Shown: positions 23,201 through 40,362 of the stretch, one piece after another
How positions within the stretch are numbered: position 1 is the stretch's first letter
Layout: the number at the start of each line of letters is the position of its first letter
NCBI RefSeq assembly: GCF_001282685.1
Contig: NZ_LN875035.1
Span: forward strand, 786,250 to 850,249
DNA from: Niameybacter massiliensis
GTDB taxonomy: Bacteria; Bacillota; Clostridia; Lachnospirales; Cellulosilyticaceae
DNA: 64,000 nucleotides
Direction: 5' to 3'
Notes under the pieces: generated by a model
The model's input: only the letters and a program-made list of their open reading frames with translations
The model's database searches: none
What the model was told of the DNA's origin: nothing
Made by a program: the position numbers and the translations under genes

Positions 23201-23243
23201 AAAAGAGATAGTCCAAAATGAATACTTTTGGACTATCTCTTTT
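23201..23243 (-). terminator. Terminator of the Cys-rich protein gene
   Basis: An 18-bp perfect stem (23201-23218 with 23226-23243, 7-base loop) with A-run and T-run arms, 11 bases after the stop of the gene ending at 23255. Confidence 0.9.
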
Positions 23244-23254
23244 GCATACTTTTA

Positions 23255-23545
23255 CTATTTATCCAAATAGCACATTGGGCAATAGATTTCTCCTGCTTCT
23301 GCATTGCTGGCTAAAACTTTTAATTCTTTACCACATTTTACGCATTTTGAAATACTAAATGCTTCTTCTTCACAATCTTCTATATAATGCTCGCAAGTTA
23401 ATTCACAATGATCCTCATCACACTCTGAACAACTTTCTGATGGAAAACCAAACTCACAACCTTCTGTGATATCGTTGTTATCGTCATCTATTTCATCGAT
23501 TATACTTTTTAAATTTTTACAAGTGCTACAAATGCATGTACCCAT
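23255..23545 (-). CDS. Small cysteine-rich, probable zinc-ribbon protein
   Basis: 96 residues with 13 cysteines. The C-terminal CVKCG (68-72) and CPMC (89-92) form a likely zinc ribbon. The N-terminal CICSTC and the middle CSECDEDHCELTC cluster could bind one or two more metal ions. The middle is strongly acidic. No enzymatic motif is present. GAGGAGG lies seven bases before ATG, so the gene is well expressed in principle. It stands alone between terminator-flanked helicase genes. I do not recognise a named family. Confidence 0.65.
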   Translation of the reverse strand: MGTCICSTCKNLKSIIDEIDDDNNDITEGCEFGFPSESCSECDEDHCELTCEHYIEDCEEEAFSISKCVKCGKELKVLASNAEAGEIYCPMCYLDK

Positions 23546-23618
23546 GACGTCGCCTCCTCAAATTTTTTCTATCGTTATAGATTATAACAAATTCCAAGCT
23601 ACATTGTAATATCCTTTT

Positions 23619-24755
23619 CTATAAAAGGCTTTCATTCATCACTTCCAAAGACTTGCCTTGTAGATTTTCAATGGCTTTAAGCCATTCCCTCTCATCATTA
23701 CTACAGAAGGAAATAGCCGTGCCACTTTGCCCCGCTCTTCCCGTCCTACCGATACGGTGAATATAAGTTTCAGGTACATTGGGGATATCCATATTGATTA
23801 CGTGGGATAATTTATCAATATCAATCCCCCTTGCAGCTATATCCGTAGCAACTAATATTTTGATTTCCTTTTGTTTAAATAATTCCAGTACCTTCTGACG
23901 TTCTGACTGATTTTTGTCCCCATGAATCGCCTTATTCCGGATATTCGCTACATTGATTGCCTTACTCACTTTATCTGCTTTCTTCTTTGTTCTTGTAAAG
24001 ATCAATACAGACTCAAAAGCTTCTGTCTTCAAAAGTTGTAACAAACGTGCTACTTTGTCTGGTTCCTCTACGAAATACACCTGTTGCTTGACCTGGATTT
24101 CACCATCGTGGGATTTCTTCGCCTCTACCTGCACAGGATTTTTGAGTATGGTGTGGGCCAGTTTGGTCACTTCCTTTGGCATAGTTGCTGAAAATAATAT
24201 GTTCTGGCGCTTTTTGGGTAATTGATCGATGATGGTTTTCACTTGCTTAATCATCCCCACATCAAGCATTTGGTCTGCCTCATCAAGTACAAAGATTCCA
24301 ACGCTCTCCAACTTCACAAAACCTTGTTGTACCAAGTCAACTAATCTCCCTGGTGTTGCAACCAAAATCTCTGGCTCTCTTTTCAAAACCTTAATATGTC
24401 GTTTGGGTGTAACACCACCAAAGATGACACCAACTTTCATGTCTAGATGAGCCCCATAATGCTCAAACTGCTCACCAATTTGAATGGCTAATTCCCTTGT
24501 AGGTGCCAATACCAGTGCACGAACCTGCTTCCTGTCCTCTTGGTCACCTTCTCTATCTCCTTTTAAGAGATTCTGCAATATAGGAATGGCAAATGCAGCT
24601 GTTTTCCCCGTTCCTGTTTGAGCACATCCCACTAAATCTCTTCCTTTTAGTAACACGGGAATAGCTTGTTTTTGTATAGGGGTTGGCTCTTGATAATCTT
24701 GCGCCTCAACCCCTTTAATAATTGCTTGATCTAACCCAAAATCCTCAAATACCAT
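23619..24755 (-). CDS. DEAD-box ATP-dependent RNA helicase (RhlE/CshA-like)
   Basis: 378 residues, the compact core without a C-terminal RNA-binding extension. The Q motif (FEDFGLDQ...PTPIQKQAIP), Walker A AQTGTGKT (45-52), PTRELA, DEAD (158-161), SAT and HRIGRTGRAG are all present in order. It unwinds RNA duplexes, typically in ribosome assembly, mRNA decay or cold adaptation. The short C-terminus argues against DbpA/CsdA types. GAGGAG precedes ATG. No operon partner is evident. Confidence 0.93.
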   Translation of the reverse strand: MVFEDFGLDQAIIKGVEAQDYQEPTPIQKQAIPVLLKGRDLVGCAQTGTGKTAAFAIPILQNLLKGDREGDQEDRKQVRALVLAPTRELAIQIGEQFEHYGAHLDMKVGVIFGGVTPKRHIKVLKREPEILVATPGRLVDLVQQGFVKLESVGIFVLDEADQMLDVGMIKQVKTIIDQLPKKRQNILFSATMPKEVTKLAHTILKNPVQVEAKKSHDGEIQVKQQVYFVEEPDKVARLLQLLKTEAFESVLIFTRTKKKADKVSKAINVANIRNKAIHGDKNQSERQKVLELFKQKEIKILVATDIAARGIDIDKLSHVINMDIPNVPETYIHRIGRTGRAGQSGTAISFCSNDEREWLKAIENLQGKSLEVMNESLL

Positions 24756-24876
24756 TTATATCTCCTCATCTGTTTGATGTTTCATTAAAATACTATACCT
24801 CTTATCCTAACTGAATCACTCTAAACATTCAACCCACTTCTCCTTGTTCCCACCCTACTCCCCTCACTCAAAAATA

Positions 24877-24908
24877 AAAAGCTTAAAGGTTTTACACTTT
24901 TAAGCTTT
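24877..24908 (-). terminator. Terminator overlapping the GNAT gene end
   Basis: An 11-bp stem (24878-24888 with 24897-24908, one bulged T) overlaps the last codons of the GNAT gene. The minus-strand tail is T-rich at 24871-24877. Confidence 0.65.
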
Positions 24909-25509
24909 GATGACACACCATTCTCACTGGTGCAGGTAAATCAGTATTGTTATGCTCTTTTTCAACGATTTCAAAACCACTTTTTAGATAGGCATTGATC
25001 GCTTGAGCATTGTCTTTTACAACATCAAGTCCAATGGGTTTGTCTTTATGGGTTTCCTTAAAATAGTTAAGAAGCATTTTCCCAATTCCTAAGTTCTGAT
25101 ACGCTTCATCAACTGCTACATTGGATATATAGTATGCGTTTGTAAAATCTTCTCTAATTACTTTTTGCCAATAAACATCAAAAACCCCATCAAAGTATTT
25201 TGGCACTTCTATTGCTAGTTTTGAAAAAGCTTGCTTGTAAGCCTCCCTATCATTCATATAATCCTCTTCAATAAAGCAAAGCATACCTACAACAGCTTTT
25301 TCATACTCTGCCACAATTAAGTTTTTAATGCTAATATTGATTGTTTCTGTTGATATAAGTTCCTGTAGAATCCGAGCTGCACAATTTACATCACCAAACA
25401 TGGCCCCATAAATATTCAGGTCTGACGAATAGATAAGCTTTGCAATTTGTTTTACATCATCCGTTCTTACTGCTTTTCTAATTATAATTTTATTTTTATC
25501 AATCATCAT
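24892..25509 (-). CDS. GNAT-family N-acetyltransferase
   Basis: 205 residues. The acetyl-CoA motif A region is YYISNVAVDEAYQNLGIGKMLL (about 128-149, with the QxxGxG-like QNLGIGK). Motif B follows as LDVVKDNAQAINAYLKSGFEIV. It would transfer acetyl from acetyl-CoA to an amine. The substrate is not predictable, and a ribosomal-protein or small-molecule target is equally possible. Two tandem ATGs follow AAGGAG; the second (25504-25506) has better spacing. It is monocistronic, with the serine hydrolase gene next upstream. Confidence 0.83.
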   Translation of the reverse strand: MMIDKNKIIIRKAVRTDDVKQIAKLIYSSDLNIYGAMFGDVNCAARILQELISTETINISIKNLIVAEYEKAVVGMLCFIEEDYMNDREAYKQAFSKLAIEVPKYFDGVFDVYWQKVIREDFTNAYYISNVAVDEAYQNLGIGKMLLNYFKETHKDKPIGLDVVKDNAQAINAYLKSGFEIVEKEHNNTDLPAPVRMVCHQSLKV

Positions 25510-25561
25510 ATTCTCCTTCTATATAATAAGTTTCATAGGTATATTCTACTAAATTCTTCAA

Positions 25562-26746
25562 TTATTGATTGGATACAGCCTTTGTTATTGCTCTAAAAAA
25601 GGCAACCGTTTTCTTTTCCTTATCATCCTCTTCAAACTTTGAATCTGCACCTGTTTTTACAATGATTACCTCTTTGTCAGGATTGATATATATCCATTGA
25701 CCAAAAACACCAATTGCCATAAACTCATTTTCATCCCCTTCAGGTATCCACCATTGATAGCCATACCCCAACTCACTATATGGTTTACCATCCTTTGGCG
25801 CTTTTAATTGAGGAGCATTTGTTTCTACAGAATCCTTAATCCAGTTTTTAGGTATAATTTGCTTACCTTCAAAAACTCCATCATTCATATATAACCTACC
25901 AAATCTAGCATAATCCCTTAACGAAATGTGAAGCCCACCATTTGCCAGCTCTTTATTATTACTAAGTGTCCAGTATGCGTCATTCTCAACACCTATCTGG
26001 GACCATATTTTCTCCTCCATATACTTACTTAAGCTCTTACCTGTTGCATTTGAAACAATCTCTCCTAAAATATCTGTATTGATACTTGAATACGTTCTAT
26101 TTGTACCAGGCTCATGTGCAAGTCCAAATTTAACAATAGACTTCATTTTAGAGACTCCAAACATACTTGTCATAGAAATCTTACTCATATCAGACACTTC
26201 ATCAAAATCAATCCCTGATGACATTTGCAGGCAGTCTTTAATCGTTATCTTCTCCATTTCAGTATCTTTAAATGCTTCTATATACTTGCCTATAGAATCC
26301 TCCACACTGTCTATATAGCCTTCTTCTATTGCAATACCAACTAAAGCCGAAGTGAAGGATTTACATACAGAGTTTGAGGAAAAACGCGTATTCTCACCTG
26401 CACCTAAATAGTAATTTTCATATGCAATTTTATTATTGGCAACTACAAGTAACCCAGACGTTTTGGTTTCTTCTAGAAATTTATCCGTTACTAACTTTTC
26501 CCCACGAAATTCAAAGGTATCTATCATAGGAACTAGATCATACTCAAATTTTGATACACTTTCACTCTTTGATATTTTGGTTGAAGGTTGTATTTCATAC
26601 ATTGTTTGAAAGCTATGTGCCAGATTCTTCTCTTCAAAAGCATTGATGGAACGATACACTAAAAGCAGAGTATCTCCATAAATCACACCTACTGTTATAA
26701 CGGCTACAACAACCATTAAAAGTCCAATCATAAAAATTTTTTTCAT
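25562..26746 (-). CDS. Membrane-anchored serine hydrolase (class C beta-lactamase/DD-peptidase fold)
   Basis: 394 residues. An N-terminal membrane anchor (about 5-30) puts the domain outside the cell. The catalytic SxxK is S126-V-C-K129, and the second-box Tyr is Tyr219 in TYSSINTDILG. A third-box-like KTG appears near the end (IIVKTGADSKF). The layout resembles 6-aminohexanoate-dimer hydrolase/esterase relatives rather than a true beta-lactamase. Substrate is unknown; a D-amino peptide, ester or antibiotic is possible. An AGGAG site precedes ATG. Confidence 0.85.
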   Translation of the reverse strand: MKKIFMIGLLMVVVAVITVGVIYGDTLLLVYRSINAFEEKNLAHSFQTMYEIQPSTKISKSESVSKFEYDLVPMIDTFEFRGEKLVTDKFLEETKTSGLLVVANNKIAYENYYLGAGENTRFSSNSVCKSFTSALVGIAIEEGYIDSVEDSIGKYIEAFKDTEMEKITIKDCLQMSSGIDFDEVSDMSKISMTSMFGVSKMKSIVKFGLAHEPGTNRTYSSINTDILGEIVSNATGKSLSKYMEEKIWSQIGVENDAYWTLSNNKELANGGLHISLRDYARFGRLYMNDGVFEGKQIIPKNWIKDSVETNAPQLKAPKDGKPYSELGYGYQWWIPEGDENEFMAIGVFGQWIYINPDKEVIIVKTGADSKFEEDDKEKKTVAFFRAITKAVSNQ

Positions 26747-26905
26747 TATTTTCTCCTTTATCTCTTCAGATTTATTATGTTATGTCTTCATTTGCTTCCA
26801 CCATAGTAATCTGTGTTGTAACCACACGGTCAAGCATAACTTTTATAAATGCATAAGGAGAATCTTATATTCTATTTTTCCTAATTTCCAATCTATGACT
26901 ATAGG

Positions 26906-28252
26906 TTATTTTTGTTCATAAGCGCATCTCTTTTTTAGAATAATTGAAAGGACTACTACAGCACAATCTGCAATAGGTGTTGCAATAAATAACCCTATTA
27001 TTGGTAATAGACCAAAATTAGAAAAAATGGTTGGAAGCAAAAAGAGTAATGGAATCACCAAAAACACCTGTCGCGTTAAAGCAAGTAATACAGAGGCAAT
27101 CTCTTTACCAGTCACTTGCAGTAGTGTGATATTAATATAAAATATTCCTACTAAAGGGAAACCACTAAAAATGATTAACAAAATAGTTTGTGATAGAGCT
27201 AGTATTTCGCTGTTACCACCAAAAACATAAAGTAACTGTTCCCCCCATAGAACTACTATTACTAATGCTATGACACCGTAGATGGCACAATATTTTTGAG
27301 TCATTGAAGATATACGCTTTACTTTTTCTTTTTCCCCTTCTCCACTAAAATATGCAATGATTGTTTGTACACCCTGGCTTAACCCTACAATTGGCATAAG
27401 TAAAATCATATAAATACGTTGAGCAATGCTCCATGCTGCCACAGATAGGGTAGTGCCAGTATGAAGCAATTGACCATTTACAAAAAAGCCAGTACATCCC
27501 CCTAGCATTTGAATTACAGTTTGTGCAAATCCGATTTTAAACATTTCTTTTCCAAGAGCACATACCCTAACTAAATTTATCTTCTGAGTTATTTGAAGCA
27601 TGCTTTTTTTCTGTAGAAACAAAATAGATAATATCACACAAATCAATTCACTTATAAATGTCCCCCATGCCAACCCCTGTATTCCCATGTGAAAACCGAA
27701 GCTTAGTAAAGCATTGAAAAAGATATTTACCACAACTGCAACAGTAATAATCACCATTTCTGCCTTTGGGAATCCAAGTGCACGTATAGTACAAGTCATC
27801 GTATATCCTACACTACTAATGATATTACTCACTAACTGAATCTTCATGTAGACAGTTGCAAGCTGTAGTATCTCTCCTTCTGCACCTATGATTTGTAGGA
27901 TAGAAGTTAACCCAATGCCACAAAGCAAAGAAGCAATGCTAGATACAAGAATAGACATTAAAAGTCCTACAATCATAGAACTCTTTCTATTTTCTTCATC
28001 ATTAAAATATTTTGCTATCAATACACCACTTGACATTGCAAAAAGAGTCTGTAGTGCTGTAAAGACACTAAGTAATGGGCTAATCAAAGCCATAGCTGAA
28101 AGAGCACTTTCTCCTATTCTAGGAAGATTTCCTGCAAAGGCAGTATCAGTAATCCCTGTTAGCATCTCTATAACAAGTGCCAAAATAGATGGAATGCCAA
28201 ATAGTAAAATTAATTGATTGAGTGTTTTGTTTTCATATACATTATCTTTCAT
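26906..28252 (-). CDS. MATE-family multidrug efflux transporter
   Basis: 448 residues and about 12 predicted membrane helices in two six-helix halves. The N-terminal LNQLILLFGIPSILALVIEMLTGITDTAFAG-type region with two-membrane-helix symmetry is typical of MATE proteins. It exports cationic drugs or dyes in exchange for Na+ or H+. GAGGAGGG lies before ATG. It is preceded on the same strand by a WYL-type regulator, with a 17-bp perfect hairpin between them, suggesting regulated expression. Confidence 0.9.
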   Translation of the reverse strand: MKDNVYENKTLNQLILLFGIPSILALVIEMLTGITDTAFAGNLPRIGESALSAMALISPLLSVFTALQTLFAMSSGVLIAKYFNDEENRKSSMIVGLLMSILVSSIASLLCGIGLTSILQIIGAEGEILQLATVYMKIQLVSNIISSVGYTMTCTIRALGFPKAEMVIITVAVVVNIFFNALLSFGFHMGIQGLAWGTFISELICVILSILFLQKKSMLQITQKINLVRVCALGKEMFKIGFAQTVIQMLGGCTGFFVNGQLLHTGTTLSVAAWSIAQRIYMILLMPIVGLSQGVQTIIAYFSGEGEKEKVKRISSMTQKYCAIYGVIALVIVVLWGEQLLYVFGGNSEILALSQTILLIIFSGFPLVGIFYINITLLQVTGKEIASVLLALTRQVFLVIPLLFLLPTIFSNFGLLPIIGLFIATPIADCAVVVLSIILKKRCAYEQK

Positions 28253-28280
28253 ATCGTTATATCCCTCCTCAAATTAGAAT

Positions 28281-28319
28281 AGCAGATAAACACGACACCT
28301 TATGTCGTGTTTATCTGCT
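28281..28319. promoter_or_regulatory. 17-bp perfect inverted repeat between WYL regulator and MATE gene
   Basis: Arms 28281-28297 and 28303-28319 pair perfectly with a 5-base loop. It overlaps the regulator stop codon and ends 28 bases before the MATE start, leaving little room for a separate MATE promoter. On the minus strand there is no T-tract, whereas on the plus strand T6 follows. It could be an operator, an attenuator or processing site, or a plus-strand terminator. Confidence 0.5.
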
Positions 28320-28949
28320 ATTTTTTCTAAACTGACTATAACTAAGAAAGGAACGATCAAATTCTACTTCTGTCGGCTCAATGGTAGTAATTTCAGTAAC
28401 CTTCAATAATATATAATCCTGTGCATGAGCAAATAAGTATAACCCGTCACGCTTTAAGACATATTCCAAGCATGCTACATTTGAAATCCCATCCACCTGG
28501 GCAAGCACCTGTTCATCCAAACAGTAATTTATAACTTTACATATTTCTGTATCTGTATCTATTGGAGCATCCACTAAGTCAATGGAAAGATAATCTTGCA
28601 TATCTCTTTCCACTAAGGTAGTAAGACTTGAGTCTAACAAACATAGCTTTTGTATAATGGCATCTTTCCGCTGTGTAACTGTAAAGCTGTCTGCAACGCT
28701 AAGTGCTAAAATGATATGATGAATCTCTTCTGGAGTAAAAAACGAACTTGCAAACTGATATTTTTCATCCAGATATACACCGCCACCAATCCCTTGTGTA
28801 CAATATATAGGAATGCCTATTCCTGATAAACGGTCAATATCCCTCTCAATAGTCTTTTTACTTACTGCTAATAGCTCTGCCAGTTCTCCATAGGTTGATT
28901 TTCTGTATTTCAGCAAATAAATTAATAGTTCAAATTGTCTACTTTTCAG
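28311..28949 (-). CDS. HTH_11/WYL-domain regulator with a non-ATG start
   Basis: 212 residues from a CTG at 28947-28949. The HTH is STYGELAELLAVSKKTIERDIDRL; the C-terminal part resembles a short WYL domain (CLEYVLKRDGLYLFAHAQDYILLKV). No ATG fits: the frame has TTG at 28965-28967, inside or before the strong GGGAGGAG site, and CTG nine bases after it. The CTG gives a normal WYL-protein opening (KSRQFELLIYLLKY). It is shorter than typical 300-residue WYL regulators. It probably controls the MATE gene downstream. The ligand is unknown. Confidence 0.68.
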   Translation of the reverse strand: MKSRQFELLIYLLKYRKSTYGELAELLAVSKKTIERDIDRLSGIGIPIYCTQGIGGGVYLDEKYQFASSFFTPEEIHHIILALSVADSFTVTQRKDAIIQKLCLLDSSLTTLVERDMQDYLSIDLVDAPIDTDTEICKVINYCLDEQVLAQVDGISNVACLEYVLKRDGLYLFAHAQDYILLKVTEITTIEPTEVEFDRSFLSYSQFRKNSR

Positions 28950-29013
28950 TACCTTCTCTCCTCCCAAAACTTATTAACCTAAATATATTATCACAATAAC
29001 GAATATGGCTCAA

Positions 29014-29124
29014 TTAACAAACTGCCAATCCATAAAAAAGCAACTTTCTGGCTTTTATACCACTCAAGAACTTTTCTCTATCCACTTCTAAGATTCTTAC
29101 TTGTTCACTCATTAGATTTTTCAT
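29014..29124 (-). CDS. Candidate 36-residue small ORF with a good ribosome site
   Basis: ATG at 29122-29124 follows AGGGGGG by five bases. It encodes MKNLMSEQVRILEVDREK then LSGIKARKLLFYGLAVC, with a charged N-half and hydrophobic C-half. It lies between the rlmD terminator and the WYL regulator on the same strand, with no clear promoter. It may be a real small peptide, a leader, or the remnant of a lost gene. No family is recognised. Confidence 0.3.
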   Translation of the reverse strand: MKNLMSEQVRILEVDREKFLSGIKARKLLFYGLAVC

Positions 29125-29150
29125 TAAATACCCCCCTAGACGCAAAACAA

Positions 29151-29184
29151 AAGGCTTACAGGTTTTTTAACACCTATAAGCCTT
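29151..29184 (-). terminator. Terminator of the rlmD operon
   Basis: A 13-bp stem (29151-29163 with 29172-29184, one mismatch) with a T-rich minus-strand tail, 14 bases after the rlmD stop. It closes the yhaM to rlmD transcript. Confidence 0.8.
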
Positions 29185-29197
29185 GATTTTATTTTCA

Positions 29198-30550
29198 TTA
29201 TTTAACTAATTTTACAACTGTTTCAACGTGAGTCGTATGTGGGAACATATCAACTGGTTGTACTTTTTCAACTTTATAGCCTTGTTGATCAAGATATCCT
29301 AAATCTCTTCCTAGTGTAGCTGGATCACAAGATACATAAACGATTTTCTTAGGATTCATTTTCACAAGGGTTTCAAGTAATGCTTGGTCGCACCCTTTTC
29401 TTGGTGGGTCTACAACGATTGTATCTGCTGTCAGACCATTTGCATATTGTTCTGGGATCACTTCTTCAGCTTTTCCTACGAAGAACTCTACGTTATGAAT
29501 GTCATTAAGTGCTGCATTTTCACATGCATTTTCAATGGCTGGTGCTACAATCTCTACACCATACACTTTCTTTGCTTTTTGTGCTAAGAAGAGAGAAATA
29601 GTCCCAATACCGCAGTAAGCATCCCATACTGTCTCATTGCCTTCAAGCTCAGCGTATTCTAATGCTTTGTCGTAAAGCACTTTGGTTTGCTCTGGATTGA
29701 CTTGGAAGAAGGAAAGAGCAGAGATTTTGAATTTTAAATCTCCAATAGTATCAATGATATAGTCTCTTCCTTCAAGGACTTTAATCTCATGTCCTAAAAT
29801 CACATTAGTTTTTGCTTTATTGATATTGAGTAACACACTTGTTAAGCCTTCTACTGCATGTAAAGCTTCTAGTAATTTGTCGCTGTGTGGAAGCTCATTG
29901 CCATTAACCACTAAGCATACCATCACTTCTCCAGTATAGAAACCTGTCTTAATCATGAGGTGTCTAACTAAGCCTTTATGTGTTTCTTCATCATAGATAG
30001 ATATATTGTTTACTTCTAAGAAGTTTCTTACGATTTCAATGATTTGCTCGCAACGTTTGTCTTGAATCCCACAAGTTGACCAATCTACAACTTTGTGTGT
30101 ACGGCTCATATAGAAACCAATTTGTACTTTCCCATTTTCCTTGCGAATAGGGTATTGGGCTTTGTTACGATAATGTGCTGGTGCTTCCATCCCTAGGGTT
30201 GGAAGCACTTCTATATCTTTAAGTCCACCAATACGTGTAAGGGCATTATATACCTTGCTTTGTTTCCACTCAAGTTGTGCTTCATAGCTCATATGTTGAA
30301 GTTGACAACCACCGCATTTAGTTGCTACTTCACAAGTCACTTCACTTCTTCTTGGTGACGGACTAAAAATCTTTTCAATCTTTCCATAGGCTAAGTTCTT
30401 TTTCACTTTAAGTATTTTAACTTCTAACTGATCACCTGTTATCGCTTCAGGCACAAAAACAACGAAGTCATTGATTTTCCCAACGCCTTCTCCATTTGTA
30501 CCTATATCTGTAATCGTCATCTCATAAAATTTATTTTTCTCTACTGACAT
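29198..30550 (-). CDS. rlmD: 23S rRNA (uracil-C5)-methyltransferase RlmD/RlmCD
   Basis: 450 residues. An N-terminal TRAM domain (about 4-60) precedes the Fe-S cysteines (TCEVATKCGGCQLQHM). The SAM domain has WDAYCGIGTISLFLA, then VVDPPRKGC, then the catalytic Cys in IVYVSCDPATLGRD. It methylates U1939 (or U747 and U1939 in Firmicutes-type RlmCD) of 23S rRNA. GGAG lies seven bases before ATG. It ends a run with the small unknown gene, the split nuclease genes and yhaM. Confidence 0.94.
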   Translation of the reverse strand: MSVEKNKFYEMTITDIGTNGEGVGKINDFVVFVPEAITGDQLEVKILKVKKNLAYGKIEKIFSPSPRRSEVTCEVATKCGGCQLQHMSYEAQLEWKQSKVYNALTRIGGLKDIEVLPTLGMEAPAHYRNKAQYPIRKENGKVQIGFYMSRTHKVVDWSTCGIQDKRCEQIIEIVRNFLEVNNISIYDEETHKGLVRHLMIKTGFYTGEVMVCLVVNGNELPHSDKLLEALHAVEGLTSVLLNINKAKTNVILGHEIKVLEGRDYIIDTIGDLKFKISALSFFQVNPEQTKVLYDKALEYAELEGNETVWDAYCGIGTISLFLAQKAKKVYGVEIVAPAIENACENAALNDIHNVEFFVGKAEEVIPEQYANGLTADTIVVDPPRKGCDQALLETLVKMNPKKIVYVSCDPATLGRDLGYLDQQGYKVEKVQPVDMFPHTTHVETVVKLVK

Positions 30551-30567
30551 CTTTCTTCTCCTGGTCT

Positions 30568-30744
30568 TTAATGAAAACTTGGTGTTTCGCCTTCTTCATC
30601 TTTAAGTAGTGTACGAATAGCCTTGGCTATTGCTTTTTCTTCTACTTCTTGCATCTTTGTTGTAAGATTACGTTGGATGAAATGATCAAGTAAATTTGAA
30701 CGTTGTGGTTGTACTTTTTTATTAGTGTTATCTTTTTCTCCCAT
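30568..30744 (-). CDS. Small 58-residue protein of unknown function in the nuclease operon
   Basis: Starts at the ATG at 30742-30744, two bases after the nuclease subunit stop, with GAGGAAGAGG seven bases upstream. It is highly charged (EKDNTNKKVQPQRSN, MQEVEEKAIAKAIRTLLKDEE) and likely forms a helix without a membrane segment. No family is recognised. Coupling with the Cas4-like subunit and position before rlmD suggest it may help one of them. Confidence 0.5.
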   Translation of the reverse strand: MGEKDNTNKKVQPQRSNLLDHFIQRNLTTKMQEVEEKAIAKAIRTLLKDEEGETPSFH

Positions 30745-30746
30745 TT

Positions 30747-31283
30747 CTAATCCTCTTCCTCGCATTCACATACCGTATACTGGCAAATACAATTTCTGCA
30801 TTTAATATAGCTTTTTTTCTCATTTGTCTTATACTTTCCCTCTAGCATGAGGTGCATATCACGTAATGTATTTTTCACCATAAGGCGATGCTTATAGGTA
30901 TTACGTATTTTAAAAGTTTTGTTACTATAAACTAACTTACCATAAGGTGGTTTCTTGCCATACACAGCTTCTACAAGTAAAAAATACGCCAAAAGCTGCA
31001 TCATATCCCCCTCATGTGGTAAGTCTTCTTTGGCAACACCACTTTTGATTTCAAAAGGTATATAACGTCCTGTTAAAAATGTCTTAAATATATAATCCGG
31101 CTTGCCTTGTAAGTCATATTCCTCTGATACCAGCATCTTGCCACCATTCTCATCTGTATAAATCATCCGTGCAAAAGGTAAACCGACTTGCATTTTCTGC
31201 TTACAAGATATACTTGGTCTAAATAAATAGTAGCAAAGGAAAAGACCACAAGCTCCTAATAATAGTGCTTCTCCTATTTCCAT
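30747..31283 (-). CDS. Membrane-anchored Cas4/RecB-family PD-(D/E)XK nuclease subunit
   Basis: 178 residues. An N-terminal membrane helix spans about 3-21. The RecB-family core is intact: GKPD (60-63), the ExK pair Glu78-Ile-Lys80 in PFEIKSG, and the QxxxY helix Gln96-Tyr100 (MMQLLAYFLLVEA). The C-terminal Cys162, Cys165, Cys167, Cys172 and Cys174 (CRNCICQYTVCEC) match the three-Cys end of Cas4 Fe-S clusters. The N-terminal Cys of Cas4 is missing here but is encoded by the preceding gene. Its ATG overlaps that gene by 10 bases and has its own AAGGAG site, so this is not a simple frameshift. It would cut DNA 5' to 3'. CRISPR-linked work is not implied. Confidence 0.75.
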   Translation of the reverse strand: MEIGEALLLGACGLFLCYYLFRPSISCKQKMQVGLPFARMIYTDENGGKMLVSEEYDLQGKPDYIFKTFLTGRYIPFEIKSGVAKEDLPHEGDMMQLLAYFLLVEAVYGKKPPYGKLVYSNKTFKIRNTYKHRLMVKNTLRDMHLMLEGKYKTNEKKSYIKCRNCICQYTVCECEEED

Positions 31284-31552
31284 ATGCCTACTCCTTTAAA
31301 TATAAGGATTAATAGGCCGATAAGGATAATAATCCTTATAACTTTCATAATTCGATATCTGAAGTGATAAGACGTATGGTGCTTCATCCCTTTTGTAAAG
31401 TATTCCGTATGCTCACTATGCTCTATGTCTAGTGCCTCATACATCTGGGTTAAACTTTTTGCACCATATACTCTTTTGTAATACCATTGGTTAGGGCAAT
31501 ACATAAAACGATTCAGCTCGTTGGCTGAAATACGGGTACTACTTTTTTTCAT
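31274..31552 (-). CDS. Membrane-anchored Cas4 N-terminal-like subunit (split nuclease partner)
   Basis: 92 residues. Residues 8-32 read as the Cas4 opening: SANELNRFMYCPNQWYYKRVYG, with Cys19 in the YCPxxWY motif that supplies one Fe-S ligand and DNA-binding helix. A membrane helix lies at about 70-88, then the protein ends. It has no nuclease core of its own. It overlaps yhaM (ATGA) and the core subunit gene downstream, so all three are translationally coupled. Together with the next protein it would rebuild one four-Cys Fe-S nuclease facing the cytoplasm. This pairing is an inference. Confidence 0.65.
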   Translation of the reverse strand: MKKSSTRISANELNRFMYCPNQWYYKRVYGAKSLTQMYEALDIEHSEHTEYFTKGMKHHTSYHFRYRIMKVIRIIILIGLLILIFKGVGIWK

Positions 31553-32487
31553 AGCATTGAACGTCTCATATTTCTTGTTAAAATTTTGTTGTATCCTAGA
31601 CTTGGCTCATTTGGATCTGAGTTTCTAAGCATTTCTTCAAACATTTTCAGCTTAGAATCACTATAGTCTGCAAGGTGTACAATCATGGCTTCAATACATT
31701 TAGGACGTTTTGGTGAACCATATTCATATTCACCATGGTGAGAAAGAATAATATGTTTAAGAAGGAGTAACGCTTCTTGTGATAATTCTTCTATATTTGC
31801 TTTGGCTTCATTTACTTTTTCAACCCCAAGCATAATATGGCCTAGTAATTGGCCTTCGTCTGTATAATCATTCTTTGGAAAAGCTGAAAGTTCATAGATT
31901 TTACCTATGTCATGTAATAAGCACCCTGCTACTACTAAATCTACATTCACAGGTTCATAACGGCCGGCTAAAAATACACCGATTTCAGCAACGCTTACTG
32001 TATGTTCTAATAAACCACCTAAGTAAGCATGGTGTACGGATTTGGCTGCTGCTCCAGACATAAAGTATTTATAAATGATGTCATCATAAAAGATTGCTTC
32101 TAATAGCTTTTTGATACCTGGGTCTTTGACCTCATCAATTCTACTAAATAATTTTTCTTCTAGGACTTTGATATCTTTAGGTGTATGAGGAAGTAAATTT
32201 TTAAGTTCATAACTGCCTTCTTCTGCACGTTTAATCTTTCCAATATTGGCTTGTAGATTGTCTTGATATAATACAACCTCTGCTTCTACTGAAACCACAT
32301 CATCTACATTAAATTCTTCAATCCCTGGATGAATTGCCCAGATCTTGCCTTCTATTATCCCTGTTGCATCTTGAAGCTTAACAGTAAGATAGTCTTTTCC
32401 ATTTTTATTTTTAAGCATTTGCTTATATTTACATAGATAGCATCCTTGCATCTTCTCTTCTGATTTTAAGTCAACTATAAGGCTCAT
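31549..32487 (-). CDS. yhaM: 3'-5' exoribonuclease YhaM (OB-fold plus HD domain)
   Basis: 312 residues from the ATG at 32485-32487, eight bases after AAGGAG; the 22 residues upstream in frame lack support. The N-terminal OB-fold (about 1-90) has the DYLTVKLQDATGIIEGKIW pattern. The HD domain has HHAYLGGLLEHT, the HD pair in GCLLHDIGKIYE and HIILSHHGEYEYGSP. It degrades RNA or single-stranded DNA from the 3' end. The stop overlaps the split-nuclease gene (ATGA). Confidence 0.9.
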   Translation of the reverse strand: MSLIVDLKSEEKMQGCYLCKYKQMLKNKNGKDYLTVKLQDATGIIEGKIWAIHPGIEEFNVDDVVSVEAEVVLYQDNLQANIGKIKRAEEGSYELKNLLPHTPKDIKVLEEKLFSRIDEVKDPGIKKLLEAIFYDDIIYKYFMSGAAAKSVHHAYLGGLLEHTVSVAEIGVFLAGRYEPVNVDLVVAGCLLHDIGKIYELSAFPKNDYTDEGQLLGHIMLGVEKVNEAKANIEELSQEALLLLKHIILSHHGEYEYGSPKRPKCIEAMIVHLADYSDSKLKMFEEMLRNSDPNEPSLGYNKILTRNMRRSML

Positions 32488-32534
32488 TTCATCCACTCCT
32501 TTATGCCCCATTGTAACATAAATGGAAAAATTAT

Positions 32535-32565
32535 AAAAGACGATGAATGTCATTCATCGCCTTTT
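32535..32565 (-). terminator. Terminator of the mutS2-htrA region
   Basis: Arms 32535-32549 and 32551-32565 pair, with one mismatch and the innermost bases opening as a loop. A T-rich minus-strand tail follows. It lies seven bases after the htrA stop and separates htrA from yhaM. Confidence 0.8.
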
Positions 32566-32571
32566 ATGGTT

Positions 32572-34191
32572 TTATTGATTTTGACTTTGAAGCTGCGCTT
32601 GACTCTTGCCTCGAAGTTTAACATCTAAATTCACTTTTTCTGAACCACGTACTATCTTAAGAGAAACTTGATCACCTACTTGTTTCTCTAAAAGAAGTGC
32701 TTTAAGCTCTTCCATTGTAGCGATTCTTGTGCCATCAAATTCAATAATAATATCGCCTTGTTGCATACCTGCTATAGCTGCACTACTTCCTGGTTGTACT
32801 TGAACAACCATAATCCCTACTGGAATATCGTAGTAATTACCTAATTCCTCAGTTAAGTTTTCACCGACAATACCAAGTACTGGACGGTCAATACTACCAT
32901 TTTGCATCAGTTCATCTACAATAGGTTTAACATCATTGATTGGAATAGCAAAGCCCATTCCTTCAATTTGGCTATCTACTAATTTGATGGTATTAATCCC
33001 AATAACTTCTCCTGTTGGTCCCACAAGGGCCCCACCACTATTACCTGGGTTAATCGCAGCATCTGTTTGAATCAGATTAAGTTTTTGATCTGTTAAGTTA
33101 ATCTCACGGTCAAGGGCACTAATAACCCCTACAGTTACTGTATTTTCATAGGCTTCATCAATAGGTGTACCAATAGCCACTGCTAAGTCCCCTACACGTA
33201 GTGTATCATTATCACCCAGTGCAGCTGGTTGAATTTGATCTACAATATCTGTTGGTACGTCTGCTTTATTAACGGATACAACAGCAATATCTGTAACTGT
33301 ATCGTAACCTACAATCTCTGCTGGTACCTTTGTATTGCCAAGGAAGGTCACTGTTAATGAGCTTGCCCCTTCTACAACGTGTGCATTAGAAATAATGAAG
33401 ATTTTATCACCATCTGTTTTAAAGATAACCCCTGAACCAAGTCCTTCTTGATTGAATTCACCAGCCCATGTTGTCACAACCTTATTATTTTTAATAGATA
33501 CAACAGATGGTCCTACATTGGCTGCAATATCTGCTATAGAATTATTCACATAGACAGGTGCTACATAACCTGTAGATTGGGCGAAAGAACTATTGTTATT
33601 GCCTCCATTTGTTGAAGAATCACTAAATTCCATACCGTATTTATCTGTATACAGTTGTTTGGCTAAAGGTGCTGTAAATGCATAGCCTGCTCCAAGAGAA
33701 GCACCACCTACAAGACTTACAATGGTAAGACCTGCTACAAATTTACCAAATCCTCCTGAAGATTTTTTCTTACGAGGTGCCTTTTTCTCTTTAATGGTCT
33801 CATGGTAGTAGGTATTATTCTCATCCATAATAGGAGGAAGAGGATTGGTACTACTTGCCACTTTTGGCTCTTCTGTATAGCTGCCAGCTTGCCCATTTTG
33901 TGTATAATCTGTCTGACTTTGATTATTTGCTGAATTGCTAGATGTATAAGATCCTCGTTGTGATGTATGTGCAGGGTTAACTTGTGTATAGTTTGCCTGT
34001 TGTGTTACATTCCCTTGCTCCATAGTTGAAGGTACTGTTTGTTTGTCTGTATTGTTGCTATTTACATTTATAGATTCTGCTGGCTGAACTTGATCAGCTG
34101 GTATCCCTTGTGCATCTGGTATCGGTGTATAAGGAACATCTATTATTTTGTTATTTTTATTTGATTCATTTCTATTATTATTATCTTGCAT
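32572..34191 (-). CDS. htrA: HtrA/DegP-family membrane-anchored serine protease
   Basis: 539 residues from the ATG at 34189-34191, eight bases after GGAGG. Residues 1-145 are a long cytoplasmic Asn/Gln/Ser/Thr-rich tail, ending in a basic patch (KKAPRKKKSSGG). A membrane helix (about 150-175) anchors the protease outside. The S1C triad is His271 (SNAHVVEG), Asp301 (DTVTDIAVV) and Ser385 (NPGNSGGAL). One PDZ domain closes the protein. It degrades or chaperones misfolded exported proteins. It lies downstream of a two-component pair on the same strand, an arrangement like CssRS and htrA. Confidence 0.94.
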   Translation of the reverse strand: MQDNNNRNESNKNNKIIDVPYTPIPDAQGIPADQVQPAESINVNSNNTDKQTVPSTMEQGNVTQQANYTQVNPAHTSQRGSYTSSNSANNQSQTDYTQNGQAGSYTEEPKVASSTNPLPPIMDENNTYYHETIKEKKAPRKKKSSGGFGKFVAGLTIVSLVGGASLGAGYAFTAPLAKQLYTDKYGMEFSDSSTNGGNNNSSFAQSTGYVAPVYVNNSIADIAANVGPSVVSIKNNKVVTTWAGEFNQEGLGSGVIFKTDGDKIFIISNAHVVEGASSLTVTFLGNTKVPAEIVGYDTVTDIAVVSVNKADVPTDIVDQIQPAALGDNDTLRVGDLAVAIGTPIDEAYENTVTVGVISALDREINLTDQKLNLIQTDAAINPGNSGGALVGPTGEVIGINTIKLVDSQIEGMGFAIPINDVKPIVDELMQNGSIDRPVLGIVGENLTEELGNYYDIPVGIMVVQVQPGSSAAIAGMQQGDIIIEFDGTRIATMEELKALLLEKQVGDQVSLKIVRGSEKVNLDVKLRGKSQAQLQSQNQ

Positions 34192-34295
34192 CAAGATCGC
34201 CTCCATTTACAATTCGTTTTTGATAACTGTAGTATAGGTTCGGATTTTGAATAGTGTATGAATACAATGTAAAAAGAAGGTAGTATTATTTTGAA

Positions 34296-35780
34296 CTAAA
34301 CTTTAGAAAGTGTGAAGTAAAATGTAACAGGTTCACCTTCATTTGAAATAATACCTAGTTCTTCATTATGCTGACGGATTGTTTCCTTTACAATCACAAG
34401 GCCGATGCCCATTCCTGTCTTATCCTTACCCCTTGATAGATCAGACTTGTAGAATCTCTCCCAAATATTCTTTTGATCTTCTTTCGAAATACTTGGACCG
34501 CTATTTCTAATATAAACCCAAACTTTATTTTGTTTTGCTACAGTTTCTACTTCAATTGTTCCCTGATTATTAACAAATTTAAACGCATTATCTAACAAAT
34601 TTTGAACAACTCTTGCAATTTTTTCTGGATCTGCAAATACCATCTGCTCTTTTTTATCAAATAATACGTCTACCTTCACTTCTTTATCCTTTGTAATTTG
34701 TTCAAAGTTATCAAGAAGGTCTCGGATCATCTCATGTAGATTAAATTCCATTTTCTTAAGCGGTAAGTTGCCTTCTTCCATACGACTCAGTTCTAAAATG
34801 TCATTGGTCATCTTAATCATACGTTGAGATTCGTTTAAAACAATACGTAGATACTTGTCATGCTTCTCTGGTGGAATGGTGCCATCTAATATGGCTGTCA
34901 CAAAACCTTGAATAGATGTAAGAGGTGAACGCATATCGTGAGAGACATTGGCTATAAAGGCTTTACGATTGGCGTCAATTTTATCTAGCTCTTCCGCCAT
35001 ATAGTTAAGGGATTCACCAAGTTGAGCGATTTCATCTTCTCCCTCAACGTCTATACGCTTAGCAAAATCACCATTTGCAATCTTCTTAGCTACTTGGTTC
35101 ATTTCTTTAAGGGGTTTACTCATACGCTTTGAAGTATAGTAAATTAAAATAAAGATAATACCTGCTGTTACAAGGACAGCCTTTGCCAAGATACTTCTTA
35201 CTTCATCAATCAGTGTCAGAATCTGTGGCATTGGTGTATGAATAAATAGGGCAAGCTCTACTTGGCCACCTATTTCAATAGGATAGCCCACAGTGAGTAC
35301 AGGTGTAGAAAAATACTGTTCAAAGCCTGTTTCGCGAGAAATGATATTCCCTTCAAAGACTTTCTCAATGATTTCAGGATTGGCTAACTTTCGATCTAAA
35401 ATCATAGAATCTTCTTTGCCTGAGACCATTTGCATTTTATGGTCTTTACCTACTATCCAAGTTGTTGCATCTAAATAACTATCTAATACTTTAATTCTAA
35501 GTGTGACGCGGTCTAATACTGAACTAATAGATTGATGCATTTCACCAACCTTTTGATATTCTTCAGCAATCAGCTCTGCTTGCTTAATCATAATGTTTTC
35601 TGTGTAGTCCACATAGTAACGTTGAAAAGCATTAGAAAAAATAGTGAAGAAGAAAACAAACGTAACAATTAAAATACCGATATAAAGGGTTAAAAGTTTA
35701 TTAAATAAAGAAGAGAATAGGACTCTCTTCTTTACTTTTCGAACTTGTACCCTACTCCCCATACTGTTTTTATGCTCCAT
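34296..35780 (-). CDS. HAMP-type sensor histidine kinase upstream of htrA
   Basis: 494 residues. Helices at about 27-49 and 199-216 bracket an extracellular domain of about 150 residues. HAMP (217-270), HisKA with His281 (VSHDMRSP), and HATPase motifs (LLDNAFKF, NSGPSIS, GMGIGL) follow. AAGGTG lies seven bases before ATG, and the gene overlaps the response regulator by 49 bases. It is the membrane sensor of the pair and a PhoR/CssS-type role is plausible. Signal unknown. Confidence 0.93.
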   Translation of the reverse strand: MEHKNSMGSRVQVRKVKKRVLFSSLFNKLLTLYIGILIVTFVFFFTIFSNAFQRYYVDYTENIMIKQAELIAEEYQKVGEMHQSISSVLDRVTLRIKVLDSYLDATTWIVGKDHKMQMVSGKEDSMILDRKLANPEIIEKVFEGNIISRETGFEQYFSTPVLTVGYPIEIGGQVELALFIHTPMPQILTLIDEVRSILAKAVLVTAGIIFILIYYTSKRMSKPLKEMNQVAKKIANGDFAKRIDVEGEDEIAQLGESLNYMAEELDKIDANRKAFIANVSHDMRSPLTSIQGFVTAILDGTIPPEKHDKYLRIVLNESQRMIKMTNDILELSRMEEGNLPLKKMEFNLHEMIRDLLDNFEQITKDKEVKVDVLFDKKEQMVFADPEKIARVVQNLLDNAFKFVNNQGTIEVETVAKQNKVWVYIRNSGPSISKEDQKNIWERFYKSDLSRGKDKTGMGIGLVIVKETIRQHNEELGIISNEGEPVTFYFTLSKV

Positions 35781-36421
35781 GGATGATCACCTTCAAATTT
35801 GTCTCTTAACCTTTTAATGTGTACGTCAACTGTACGTGTATCGCCTACAAAATCATAGCCCCAGATTTTGTCTAAAAGCTGTTCTCTTGTAAATACTTGC
35901 TTTGGATGGCTTGCTAAAAAGTATAGAACTTCTAACTCTTTTGGTGGTAACTCTAAGATATTACCTTGATAGGTTACAGAATAGTTATCTTTATCTACGA
36001 TTAAGTCTTCAAGGACAATACGATTTTTTGTTTCAGTAGGTTCTGCTTCTTCTTTTACTGTACGACGGAGTACAGCTTTGACACGGGCAATTAATTCTTT
36101 TGGATCAAATGGTTTGGCAATATAGTCATCTGCGCCTAACTCAAGCCCTAATACTTTATCAAACACATCACATTTTGCTGTAAGCATAATGATAGGGGTT
36201 TTACTTGTACGTCTAATGTATTTACATACGTCATAACCATCCATCTCTGGTAGCATGACATCAAGTAAGATTAAATCTGGTTTATAAGATTCAAATGCAT
36301 CTACAGCTTGTTTCCCACTGTAAACTTCTTGTGTGTCATAGCCTTCCTTTTGAAGATAGAGCGAAATGAGCTCTGCAATATTGGTATCGTCATCTACAAC
36401 GAGAATTTTACTTTTGTTCAT
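35732..36421 (-). CDS. OmpR/PhoB-family response regulator
   Basis: 229 residues. The receiver domain has the acidic pair Asp10/Asp11, the phospho-acceptor Asp54 (PDLILLDVMLPEMDG) and Lys in IAKPFDPKEL. The C-terminal winged helix (PPKELEVLYFLASHPKQVFTREQLLDKIWG, TVDVHIKRLRDKFE) is OmpR-type. It acts with the kinase that overlaps its end and probably regulates htrA. It lies 40 bases after mutS2. Confidence 0.95.
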   Translation of the reverse strand: MNKSKILVVDDDTNIAELISLYLQKEGYDTQEVYSGKQAVDAFESYKPDLILLDVMLPEMDGYDVCKYIRRTSKTPIIMLTAKCDVFDKVLGLELGADDYIAKPFDPKELIARVKAVLRRTVKEEAEPTETKNRIVLEDLIVDKDNYSVTYQGNILELPPKELEVLYFLASHPKQVFTREQLLDKIWGYDFVGDTRTVDVHIKRLRDKFEGDHPWSIKTVWGVGYKFEK

Positions 36422-36461
36422 TAAGACTTCCTCCTTTGTCTCGTTTAATCTATTTCTACAA

Positions 36462-38861
36462 TTATTTAATTTCTACAACAGTTACACCCATCTCACCTTC
36501 GCCATATACACCTGGGCGATGAGAAGCAATATGTGGGTGACGACGTAACATCTGTGTGATGGCCTGTCTTAAGGCACCTGTACCTTTACCATGGATAATA
36601 GTCGCTTGTTTTAAACCTGCTAAATACGCATCATCTAAATATTTATCTACAATAGGTAAGGCTTCATCTACCATTAGACCACGTACATCTATTTCTGTTT
36701 TAATATTCATTGTTTTACTTACTGCATGAGAATTACCTGTTGCTCTTGTTCTATTTTTCTTAACTGGTGCTTTTGGTGCCTCATCTTCATCTACACGCTG
36801 TAAATTAGAAATATGCACTTTCATTGGTAAAATACCAATTTGAACTTTTGCATTGCCTGCACTGTCTGGTACTTCAAGAATCACCCCTTGTTGCATTAAG
36901 TTGGTGACAAGTACTTTTTCACCCACTTCAATGTTTTTAATTGGTTTCTTGTAAGTATGTTTTGGCCCAATAGCTCTTTGTATTTTATTTTGTCTTTGTT
37001 CAACACCTTCTGATACTTTTTTCTTCGCATCATGTAAACCTTTTTCATCAATAACAATACGTGCTTCTCTGGCTGCTTGACGTACTTCTTTTAACATCTC
37101 ATCTGTTTCTTTTTGAACGTCACGAAGCAGCTGGGCTGCCTTTTCATTAGCACGTTCCATAATACGTTGTTTGGATTTTTCAAGTTTCTTACGTTCTTTT
37201 GTAATCTCTTCTTTAAAGTGTTCAGCTTCTTTTCTAAAGGTTTCTGCTTTTTCTTTTTCAATTTCAGCCATACGTTTGCTATATTCTAGCTCAACTAAAA
37301 TGTCTTCCATTTTCACATTTTCTTTGTGCAAGAACTGCTTTGCATCTTCAATGAGATGTTCTGCTAAACCAAGCTTCATAGAAATAGCAAAGGCATTACT
37401 TTTTCCTGGTACACCTATGAGTAATTTGTAAGTTGGTCTTAAAGATTCTACGTCAAATTCACAGCTTGCATTTTCTACACCTTCTGTAGAAAGGGCATAA
37501 AGCTTCAGTTCACTATAGTGCGTGGTTGCTACTGTACGAATTTGTTGCTTACGTAAGTGTTCTAGAATAGACATAGCAAGTGCCGCCCCTTCAACAGGGT
37601 CAGTTCCTGAACCTACCTCATCTAAAAGAATCAATGAGTTTAATGTCATTTGATCTAAAATACGTACTAAGTTAGTCATATGTGCAGAGAATGTACTTAA
37701 ACTTTGTTCAATACTTTGTTCATCCCCTAAGTCTGCAAAGACATCATCAAAGACATTGACAATACTACCTTCAGCAGCCGGAATTTGCATCCCTGATTGT
37801 GCCATTAAAGTAAATAAACCTAAAGTCTTTAACGTAACTGTTTTACCACCTGTATTCGGACCTGTTATAAGAAGGGTTGTAAATTGGTCACCCACATAAA
37901 CATCAATGGGTACAACTTCTTTTTGATCTAAGAGTGGATGTCTCGCTTTCTTTAAGTGGATAAAACCTTTGTGATTAAGTCCTGGCTCACGTGCATCCAT
38001 TTTAAGCGCACATTCTGCTTTCGCAAAAATCACATCGAGGCATGTAATTTGCTCAAAGTTTACAAGGACATAAGGTGCAATATCTGCAACTAAGTTTGTA
38101 AGCTCTGTTAAAAGTTTCTCAATTTCTTCTTCTTCCTTCATATGAAGGCTCTTTAAGCTATTATTCAGTTCTACAACTGCCATTGGCTCCATAAATACGG
38201 TTGCACCTGTAGAAGATTGATCATGGACAATCCCTTTAAAAGCATTTTTGTATTCTACCTTAATCGGTACACAAGAACGCCCTTGTCGCATGGTTACAAC
38301 AGTTTCTTGAAGCATGTCTTGATATCTTGAAGAATAAAGGATACCATGAATGGTTTCTTTGATCTTACCTTCTGCAGATTTAATTTGTCTACGGATTTGG
38401 TAAAGCTCTGGCGTTGCATCATCTGCATATTCATTTGGTGCTACAATACAACGACTGATTTCACGCTCAACATCATTATAAACACCAATGGCTTCAAAGT
38501 ATTTTTCAAGATGTGGTGATTTAACTTCTTCACAATCTTCTTTATAATAATTTTTCACTCTTCTACTTGTTTTAAGTAAACTTGCTATATTTAAAAGTTC
38601 ATCTCCGCTTAAAATCGCTCCAATTTCTACACGTTTAATAGCTGTAAAAATTTCCTTTGCATTACTTAATGGGAGTTTGCCCTTTTTCACGCTCATGCTT
38701 AAAGCTTCTGAAGTTTCTTTTTGTAGTTTAGTAACCTCTTCAAATGAAGAGCTTGGTAAAAGTTGTTCAATACGTGCTTTACCTGCTTCGGTTACTGCAT
38801 GTCCAGCAAGTATCGCTCTAATTTTATGAAATTCTAATTTTATTAACGCTCTCTCGTTCAT
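36462..38861 (-). CDS. mutS2: Endonuclease MutS2
   Basis: 799 residues from the ATG at 38859-38861 with AGAGGAAG before it. The MutS-like core has Walker A GPNTGGKTVT and the signature GSGTDPVEGAALA. A coiled coil (about 510-620, Glu/Lys rich) and a C-terminal Smr domain (DVRGLMVDEAL, HGKGTGALR) follow. MutS2 suppresses recombination and rescues stalled ribosomes in Firmicutes. It lacks the mismatch-recognition domain, as is normal. It may be cotranscribed with the two-component genes downstream. Confidence 0.94.
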   Translation of the reverse strand: MNERALIKLEFHKIRAILAGHAVTEAGKARIEQLLPSSSFEEVTKLQKETSEALSMSVKKGKLPLSNAKEIFTAIKRVEIGAILSGDELLNIASLLKTSRRVKNYYKEDCEEVKSPHLEKYFEAIGVYNDVEREISRCIVAPNEYADDATPELYQIRRQIKSAEGKIKETIHGILYSSRYQDMLQETVVTMRQGRSCVPIKVEYKNAFKGIVHDQSSTGATVFMEPMAVVELNNSLKSLHMKEEEEIEKLLTELTNLVADIAPYVLVNFEQITCLDVIFAKAECALKMDAREPGLNHKGFIHLKKARHPLLDQKEVVPIDVYVGDQFTTLLITGPNTGGKTVTLKTLGLFTLMAQSGMQIPAAEGSIVNVFDDVFADLGDEQSIEQSLSTFSAHMTNLVRILDQMTLNSLILLDEVGSGTDPVEGAALAMSILEHLRKQQIRTVATTHYSELKLYALSTEGVENASCEFDVESLRPTYKLLIGVPGKSNAFAISMKLGLAEHLIEDAKQFLHKENVKMEDILVELEYSKRMAEIEKEKAETFRKEAEHFKEEITKERKKLEKSKQRIMERANEKAAQLLRDVQKETDEMLKEVRQAAREARIVIDEKGLHDAKKKVSEGVEQRQNKIQRAIGPKHTYKKPIKNIEVGEKVLVTNLMQQGVILEVPDSAGNAKVQIGILPMKVHISNLQRVDEDEAPKAPVKKNRTRATGNSHAVSKTMNIKTEIDVRGLMVDEALPIVDKYLDDAYLAGLKQATIIHGKGTGALRQAITQMLRRHPHIASHRPGVYGEGEMGVTVVEIK

Positions 38862-39007
38862 AACTTCCTCTTTTATTAATTTGACATCATTATTTTGATT
38901 ATTTTTATCCTTATTATTGCACATTTTTAACTTTTTGAAAACTATAAAGGAGACGTTACACTAAATTTAGTATGGTGTCTTCCATTTTTTTAATACCTAT
39001 AATAAAT

Positions 39008-39041
39008 AAAAGGAGGCTGTTCAATTGAACAACCTCCTTTT
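39008..39041 (-). terminator. Terminator of the NlpC/P60 gene
   Basis: A nine-bp outer stem (39008-39016 with 39033-39041), one mismatch and a five-bp inner stem close on an AATT loop. The minus-strand tail is T-rich. It touches the gene end at 39043. Confidence 0.85.
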
Positions 39042-39042
39042 T

Positions 39043-40320: not shown

Positions 40321-40362
40321 AGTGTCATGCCTCCTTATTCTCTATGCCCATTATAGTACACT

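Follow-up and report, generated by a model that had tools for sequence, protein, structure and literature searches.

Two adjoining genes of Niameybacter massiliensis, one of 92 and one of 178 codons, very probably encode the subunits of a single membrane-tethered heterodimeric Cas4/RecB-type nuclease whose active site is composite and whose two chains probably share an Fe-S cluster, as sequence comparison and structure modelling together suggest. Judged by its motifs, the pair is one Cas4/RecB-type nuclease cut between the metal-binding histidine and the motif-II aspartate, with a predicted transmembrane (TM) helix at each cut end. Since many other bacteria and some plasmids also carry the pair as two genes, it has the look of a genuine, overlooked two-part membrane enzyme for cutting DNA.

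Gene layout and division of the nuclease residues

The window, by which we mean the whole 64,000-nucleotide stretch analysed, carries the pair and the neighbours described here on its minus strand. The first gene (31274..31552) encodes the 92-residue N-half and the second (30747..31283) the 178-residue C-half; both appear in the open reading frame (ORF) list exactly where the original prediction had put them, and their frames overlap by 10 bases (31274-31283). The second gene had been said to possess its own translation signals, and these were found on reading the sequence: an AAGGAG ribosome-binding site (31291..31296, minus strand) lies within the N-half coding sequence, 7 nt ahead of the C-half ATG. 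Upstream lies a yhaM-type gene with OB-fold and HD domains (31549..32553, minus strand), whose stop runs into the N-half ATG with an overlap of 4 bases. This ORF, counted from its first ATG at 32553, starts 22 residues earlier than its relatives, and an inner ATG near 32487 is probably its true start. Its product scores 193.5 bits against a YhaM cut-off of 460 bits and is therefore a divergent member. Downstream lie a small gene (30568..30765, minus strand) and rlmD (29198..30550, minus strand), a neighbour only, which encodes a 450-residue 23S rRNA m5U1939 methyltransferase (TIGR00479, 529 bits). The coupling to yhaM and the presence of rlmD downstream were thus as first described, but the small gene, given as 58 residues, has 65 from its first ATG and 58 only from an inner one.

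The motifs originally read in the two proteins were all recovered. The N-half presents Cys19 in YCPNQWYY, then GMKHH (G55, H59) and finally a C-terminal hydrophobic helix at about residues 71-88 (31289..31342, minus strand), and the C-half a hydrophobic helix at about residues 4-21 (31221..31274, minus strand) followed by GKPD63, E78-x-K80, Q96xxxY100, C162, C165, C167 and C172. Across the 92 unique split pairs that formed the conservation set, G55 and H59 were kept without exception and the presumed Fe-S ligand C19 in 91, while on the C-half D63 of GKPD, E78, K80, Q96, Y100, C162, C165 and C172 were present in every pair. The sole pair without C19 (L108) has an N-half that reads as broken, and another genome of the same genus carries an intact pair. 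Only four N-half columns, C19, Y24, G55 and H59, were invariant in a 56-row alignment. When the window was compared with clostridia, Bacillus and planctomycetes, the invariant residues of the C-halves (n = 10) still included D63, E78, K80, Q96, Y100, C162, C165 and C172, and those of the N-halves (n = 9) C19, G55 and H59. A fifth cysteine, Cys167, between C165 and C172, occurs in 85 of the 92 pairs and falls outside the four known Cas4 ligands.

A hydrophobicity scan of the same 92 pairs found a helix above threshold in 91 N-halves and 80 C-halves. Several members seem to be without the C-half TM helix, and some of the other threshold misses are matters of start-codon choice. In seven members (L022, L054, L059, L072, L075, L185, L186) the C-half helix is apparently missing and the N-half helix retained; those of the group that carry names are Defluviitaleaceae or Clostridiales drafts. 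A positive-inside charge bias was seen in 87 of 92 N-halves and 91 of 92 C-halves. This bias would leave the nuclease parts of the two halves facing the cytoplasm, with the two helices at the loop of an ordinary Cas4.

Profile searches divided one Cas4 between the two genes. The window C-half matched the TIGR00372 cas4 model (E 8e-17; 61.6 bits, below the curated cut-off of 65), with the match beginning only at profile position 59, and all 56 C-half relatives reached E 0.001 or lower with the same model, the strongest at 4.5e-40; further Cas4 matches came from Pfam, NCBIfam and PADLOC models. The window N-half gave a weak match to the first 27 positions of PF12705 (E 0.036; 14.4 bits, gathering cut-off 22), a model matched by 54 of 56 N-halves at E up to 0.1. 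PF12705 gave no match to the window C-half, and a Bacillus subtilis plasmid C-half passed its gathering cut-off with 30.1 bits. Since the C-half match sets in at position 59 of TIGR00372 and the N-half match covers the start of PF12705, the two genes appear to share out a single Cas4. Against a profile of 27 single-chain Cas4 proteins, hhalign returned probabilities of 99.4 for the C-half profile and 88.5 for the N-half profile, and the two placed side by side aligned end to end with a probability of 99.6. In this alignment C19 and H59 fell on their single-chain counterparts and both TM helices fell in a gap of the single-chain family, which agrees with the proposal that the split lies in a loop of Cas4.

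Structure models agree with this division. AlphaFold2 predicted the C-half at pLDDT 90.4 overall; confidence was 95-98 for most of residues 1-147 but fell to 55-66 in the cysteine tail, and residues 3-20 formed a helix. The N-half model (pLDDT 78.7, pTM 0.44) has a single helix at residues 49-91, in which the GxxxH motif with His59 runs on into the TM helix. With VIA-align, residues 36-155 of the C-half model were superposed on residues ∼60-185 of Cas4 (7mi4; Z 12.6, rmsd 2.9, 111 residues); a further Cas4 structure, 8d3l, gave Z 10.2, and MGME1, AdnA and EXO5 came next. Covariation between the halves was less telling: in a mean-field DCA of the 92 pairs (effective number 72) the top inter-half scores exceeded those of re-paired controls, but re-pairing also removes phylogeny, and the inter-half share among the top pairs was 0.40 against 0.47 expected by count.

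From these data we propose that the small subunit, anchored by its C-terminal helix, would contribute the metal-binding histidine along with the first of the Fe-S cysteines, and that the large subunit would supply D-ExK-QxxxY and three cysteines and be anchored by its N-terminal helix. Both nuclease parts would be cytoplasmic, with the two helices arranged at the ordinary Cas4 loop much as a hairpin severed at its outer turn would be. The halves would then assemble into a heterodimer, stapled by an Fe-S cluster that takes one cysteine from one chain and three from the other, and the heterodimer would cut or trim DNA at the membrane, most likely at single-stranded ends.

Recurrence of the split

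The split was followed through a sample of 392 genomes of the order, the source genome included; named contigs among the relatives point to Lachnospirales as this order and to the family of Cellulosilyticum as that of the window. A match was found in 94 of them: 86 were strong (E < 1e-40), two were contig-edge fragments (G078, G316) and six were single-chain Cas4 by sequence. In 84 of the 86 strong genomes a separate N-half adjoins the C-half on the same strand, which answers the suggested check for conserved pairing among relatives; in one genome (G065) the halves lie ∼200 bases apart. The eight further strong matches in 398 genomes of the phylum, L108 among them, were likewise all split. The pair-bearing genomes outside the class of the window are taken to be Thermoanaerobacterales from their grouping with Caldanaerobacter subterraneus and a Thermoanaerobacteraceae contig. 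After redundancy was collapsed, 92 split cases and a single fused one remained, 93 in all. The C-half start was set by rule at whichever ATG lies nearest to the stop of the N-half. So defined, it overlaps that stop in 65 of 91 pairs, and all three relative frames are represented (n = 91), which argues against a shared (programmed) frameshift signal joining the halves.

The two halves also go together in their absence. Among 24 genomes of the family of the window, 15 have the pair and 21 have yhaM; in the nine lacking a C-half, several of them incomplete drafts, the N-half was also absent (9/9), while both positive controls were found (2/2). A class-wide search with the N-half in 392 genomes matched three, two of them real and one chance-like, and is of little weight.

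Two strong genomes depart from the rule. G083 encodes both halves in a single 275-residue ORF with a membrane hairpin, directly after yhaM. A fused homologue in a relative had been named beforehand as a sign of a frameshift, and this one, from another family of the order, was the only case seen; it is nested inside the split clade and thus reads as a secondary fusion. In a tree of C-halves and single-chain Cas4, the paired C-halves form one clade (support 100/99), and G083, a long branch, falls within the order's split clade (99/97); the probable sequence is therefore fission first and fusion second. A 64-row tree that includes the plasmid C-halves places all paired C-halves on one side of a branch from the 27 single-chain Cas4 (99/98), a result to be read with caution for long branches. 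For the planctomycete C-halves the single-chain profile gives slightly higher scores (57.5 and 51.8 bits) than the split profile (49.8 and 47.6 bits). In the second exception, G228, the halves stand on separate contigs, each as an open frame. The N-half there follows yhaM and precedes an inverted MATE-like gene (L228), and the C-half lies between a tRNA-Gly gene and rlmD (L227). Either a rearrangement ran through the middle of the pair or the genome is misassembled, the latter being possible because it is a draft with 5% contamination.

Genomic context and possible roles

Of 55 named contig loci, 51 carry yhaM ahead of the pair in the same orientation and 47 carry rlmD after it. Six genomes of the family have yhaM without the pair; rlmD follows yhaM directly in one of them and a short gene resembling the 65-residue ORF in two. 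In these two (G004 and G010; loci L213 and L214) the short gene has 50 codons and is followed by a gene other than rlmD. As the short gene persists where the pair is absent, it is not part of the pair. In C. subterraneus the pair stands elsewhere, before a pdaA-type deacetylase gene and a flippase-like gene, and the layout in its relatives is similar by eye. The YhaM query, which matched 21 of 24 genomes of the family of the window, found no match in the eight pair-bearing genomes on the Caldanaerobacter side, so YhaM is not an obligate partner and the yhaM/rlmD operon context is lineage-specific.

Copies of the pair also occur on plasmids. When 72,556 plasmid records were searched by tblastn, relatives of the C-half turned up on three B. 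subtilis plasmids. On CP120602.1 an 81-residue ORF with ISASEIN...YCPHSW, GTKYH and a C-terminal membrane helix precedes the C-half gene, whose product itself opens with a membrane helix, and NZ_OX419568.1 has the same gene layout. A DinG/YoaA-type helicase gene lies upstream beyond a 77-residue ORF and an hfq-like gene lies downstream, and the helicase and nuclease genes look like one module. On both plasmids (L230:1333-4654 for CP120602.1; L231 for NZ_OX419568.1) the order is helicase, 77-residue ORF, pair and hfq-like gene, then thermonuclease and toprim genes. With the C. subterraneus query, the same pair was found on two planctomycete plasmids, its halves overlapping by ATGA: beside a DNA methyltransferase gene in Paludisphaera, and near relaxase and methylase genes in Singulisphaera, whose plasmid was typed as conjugative MOBF. 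A third planctomycete copy, on plasmid pPL62-2 of Planctomyces sp. SH-PL62 (L234:3837-4336), is broken and lies behind an IS701 transposase. The same query also matched two Pseudanabaena records annotated cas4.

An association with CRISPR was rejected. The statement that no array is nearby held, with no direct repeats of at least 22 bases within 200 bases of each other at window positions 22000-42000 and no Cas1 match in the source genome, and among relatives there was no link to Cas1, which occurs in six of 22 pair-bearing genomes and 16 of 37 others.

For Niameybacter we tentatively place the pair in chromosomal nucleic-acid processing or clearance beside YhaM, a role whose probability we put somewhat below even; the retained yhaM/rlmD operon, the missing Cas1 link and the lack of phage matches point to a chromosomal role in this lineage. 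That DNA would be the substrate is suggested by analogy, from the homology to Cas4 and the DinG-type helicase next to the B. subtilis plasmid copies. The main alternative is action on DNA entering at the membrane, to which the membrane location and the plasmid copies point. A broader proposal, less likely than not, is that heterodimeric membrane nucleases of this kind make up a distinct family spanning several phyla, whose bridging Fe-S cluster would switch assembly on and off and whose Cas4-type blade would stand on the cytoplasmic side, at points of DNA entry or exit.

Somewhat less probable again, at about one chance in a few, is that the pair serves mainly as a device for defence or transfer control, with DNA crossing the membrane in phage infection, conjugation or transformation as its target. 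Membrane location, homology to PADLOC Cas4 models and the plasmid copies would fit such a device, including those beside conjugal-transfer genes (annotated on NZ_OX419568.1), on the MOBF plasmid of Singulisphaera and by the Paludisphaera methyltransferase gene. However, all three B. subtilis plasmids were typed as non-mobilizable by MOB-suite, the pair in the order of the window mostly occupies one conserved chromosomal operon with housekeeping genes, and the Cas1 counts do not favour it. Three queries of 50,697 phage records and three scans of viral contigs limited by peptide patterns found no match to the pair. ComEC, present in 22/22 pair-bearing genomes and 33/37 other relatives, is near universal and so uninformative on a link to competence. 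In PMC6560143, yhaM itself is placed among the late-competence genes of pneumococcus.

The frequency of yhaM and rlmD as neighbours also raises the idea that the pair acts on RNA together with YhaM in membrane-side RNA turnover. We consider this unlikely, given the Caldanaerobacter-side genomes in which the window query found no YhaM, the DNA helicase of DinG/YoaA type beside the B. subtilis plasmid copies, and the DNA cleavage by characterised Cas4 proteins described in PMC4176176.

A little less likely still is a C-half that works as a self-sufficient, perhaps homo-oligomeric, membrane nuclease, with the N-half as a separate regulator or anchor that is Cas4-like only by descent. The halves are indeed separate chains, the remote similarity of the N-half is short, and the C-half core folds confidently alone. 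Yet C19 and H59, the very Cas4 residues missing from the C-half, are among the N-half invariants, the poorly modelled part of the lone C-half is its cysteine tail, both halves are absent together, and a fused ORF exists. The reading of a split Cas4-type nuclease is thus supported by the residue partition, the profile alignment, the fold, the strict pairing, the joint absence and the one natural fusion. A frameshift, sequencing error or decaying pseudogene, for which only the fused homologue might speak, has a negligible probability and is ruled out as the explanation by fully conserved catalytic residues and by a split that, as first argued, is no sequencing error, being the rule in the order and recurring in another order and on plasmids.

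Comparison with known nucleases

The C-half already figures in public plasmid annotation, under the names "Dna2/Cas4 domain-containing protein" or "PD-(D/E)XK nuclease family protein"; its partner is entered there as a "hypothetical protein". Literature searches, in the portions of text they returned, turned up no Cas4 described as split or membrane-anchored, and in the available text of PMC5704561 "split" is absent and "membrane" occurs once as a word start. That text reports solo-Cas4 in most Thermoanaerobacteriales, which may, at a guess, be the C-half described here. Surveys that count the C-half as a solo Cas4 would miss a partner gene carrying part of the active site.

The closest family is Cas4 (TIGR00372/COG1468/PF01930), especially solo-Cas4, with which the pair has in common the RecB motifs, one plus three cysteines, the core fold and the lack of a CRISPR tie. 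Published Cas4 structures have one N-terminal and three C-terminal cysteines and His, Asp and Glu as metal ligands, according to the parts consulted of PMC4176176, which also give 171-221 residues as the length of the single DUF83 polypeptide. All the RecB motifs of Cas4 (the metal His, Asp, ExK and QxxxY) are present in 92/92 pairs, divided over two chains, and the cysteine pattern is completed across the pair, with C19 (91/92) in the N-half and C162, C165 and C172 (92/92) in the C-half. Cas4 proteins in the consulted text of the cited papers are single chains, whereas here two genes were found in 84/86 strong genomes of the order, with a TM helix at each cut end and the active-site and presumed cluster residues divided between the chains. 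Nor was the setting of a CRISPR-associated Cas4, beside cas1/cas2 in a genome with CRISPR, found here. The single-chain Cas4 proteins of the same phylum (L116-L136, L190-L194, L197), relatives found by search, align over their full length with the N-half plus the C-half; unlike the pair, each is one chain without membrane helices at the cut, and they form a separate clade. If the proposal is true, a conserved natural split in which two membrane-anchored chains have an active site and presumed Fe-S cluster in common would add a new architecture to a nuclease family. It would also provide a genetic handle, as one His change in the 92-residue partner should stop the enzyme and one Cys change should remove the cluster. 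According to PMC4176176, Cys mutants of two archaeal Cas4 proteins lack the cluster yet remain active nucleases, so cutting may not depend on the cluster; activity was lost in a third archaeal Cas4.

Beyond Cas4, the nuclease domains of AddAB/AdnAB/RecB and of MGME1/EXO5 have a similar core fold (Z about 5-10), but by their structure titles they belong to large helicase chains or single chains, unlike the split pair. The C-half fold also resembles Finegoldia DinG (9kqh), which we take to be an EndoDinG, at a middling Z of 7.9. In the portion seen of PMC11981726, EndoDinG is a DinG helicase with an N-terminal PD-(D/E)XK domain. The likeness lies in a RecB/Cas4-like nuclease linked to a DinG helicase; EndoDinG, however, is a fused single chain, whereas here the helicase and each nuclease half have a gene of their own, and these genes stand together on the B. 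subtilis plasmids only.
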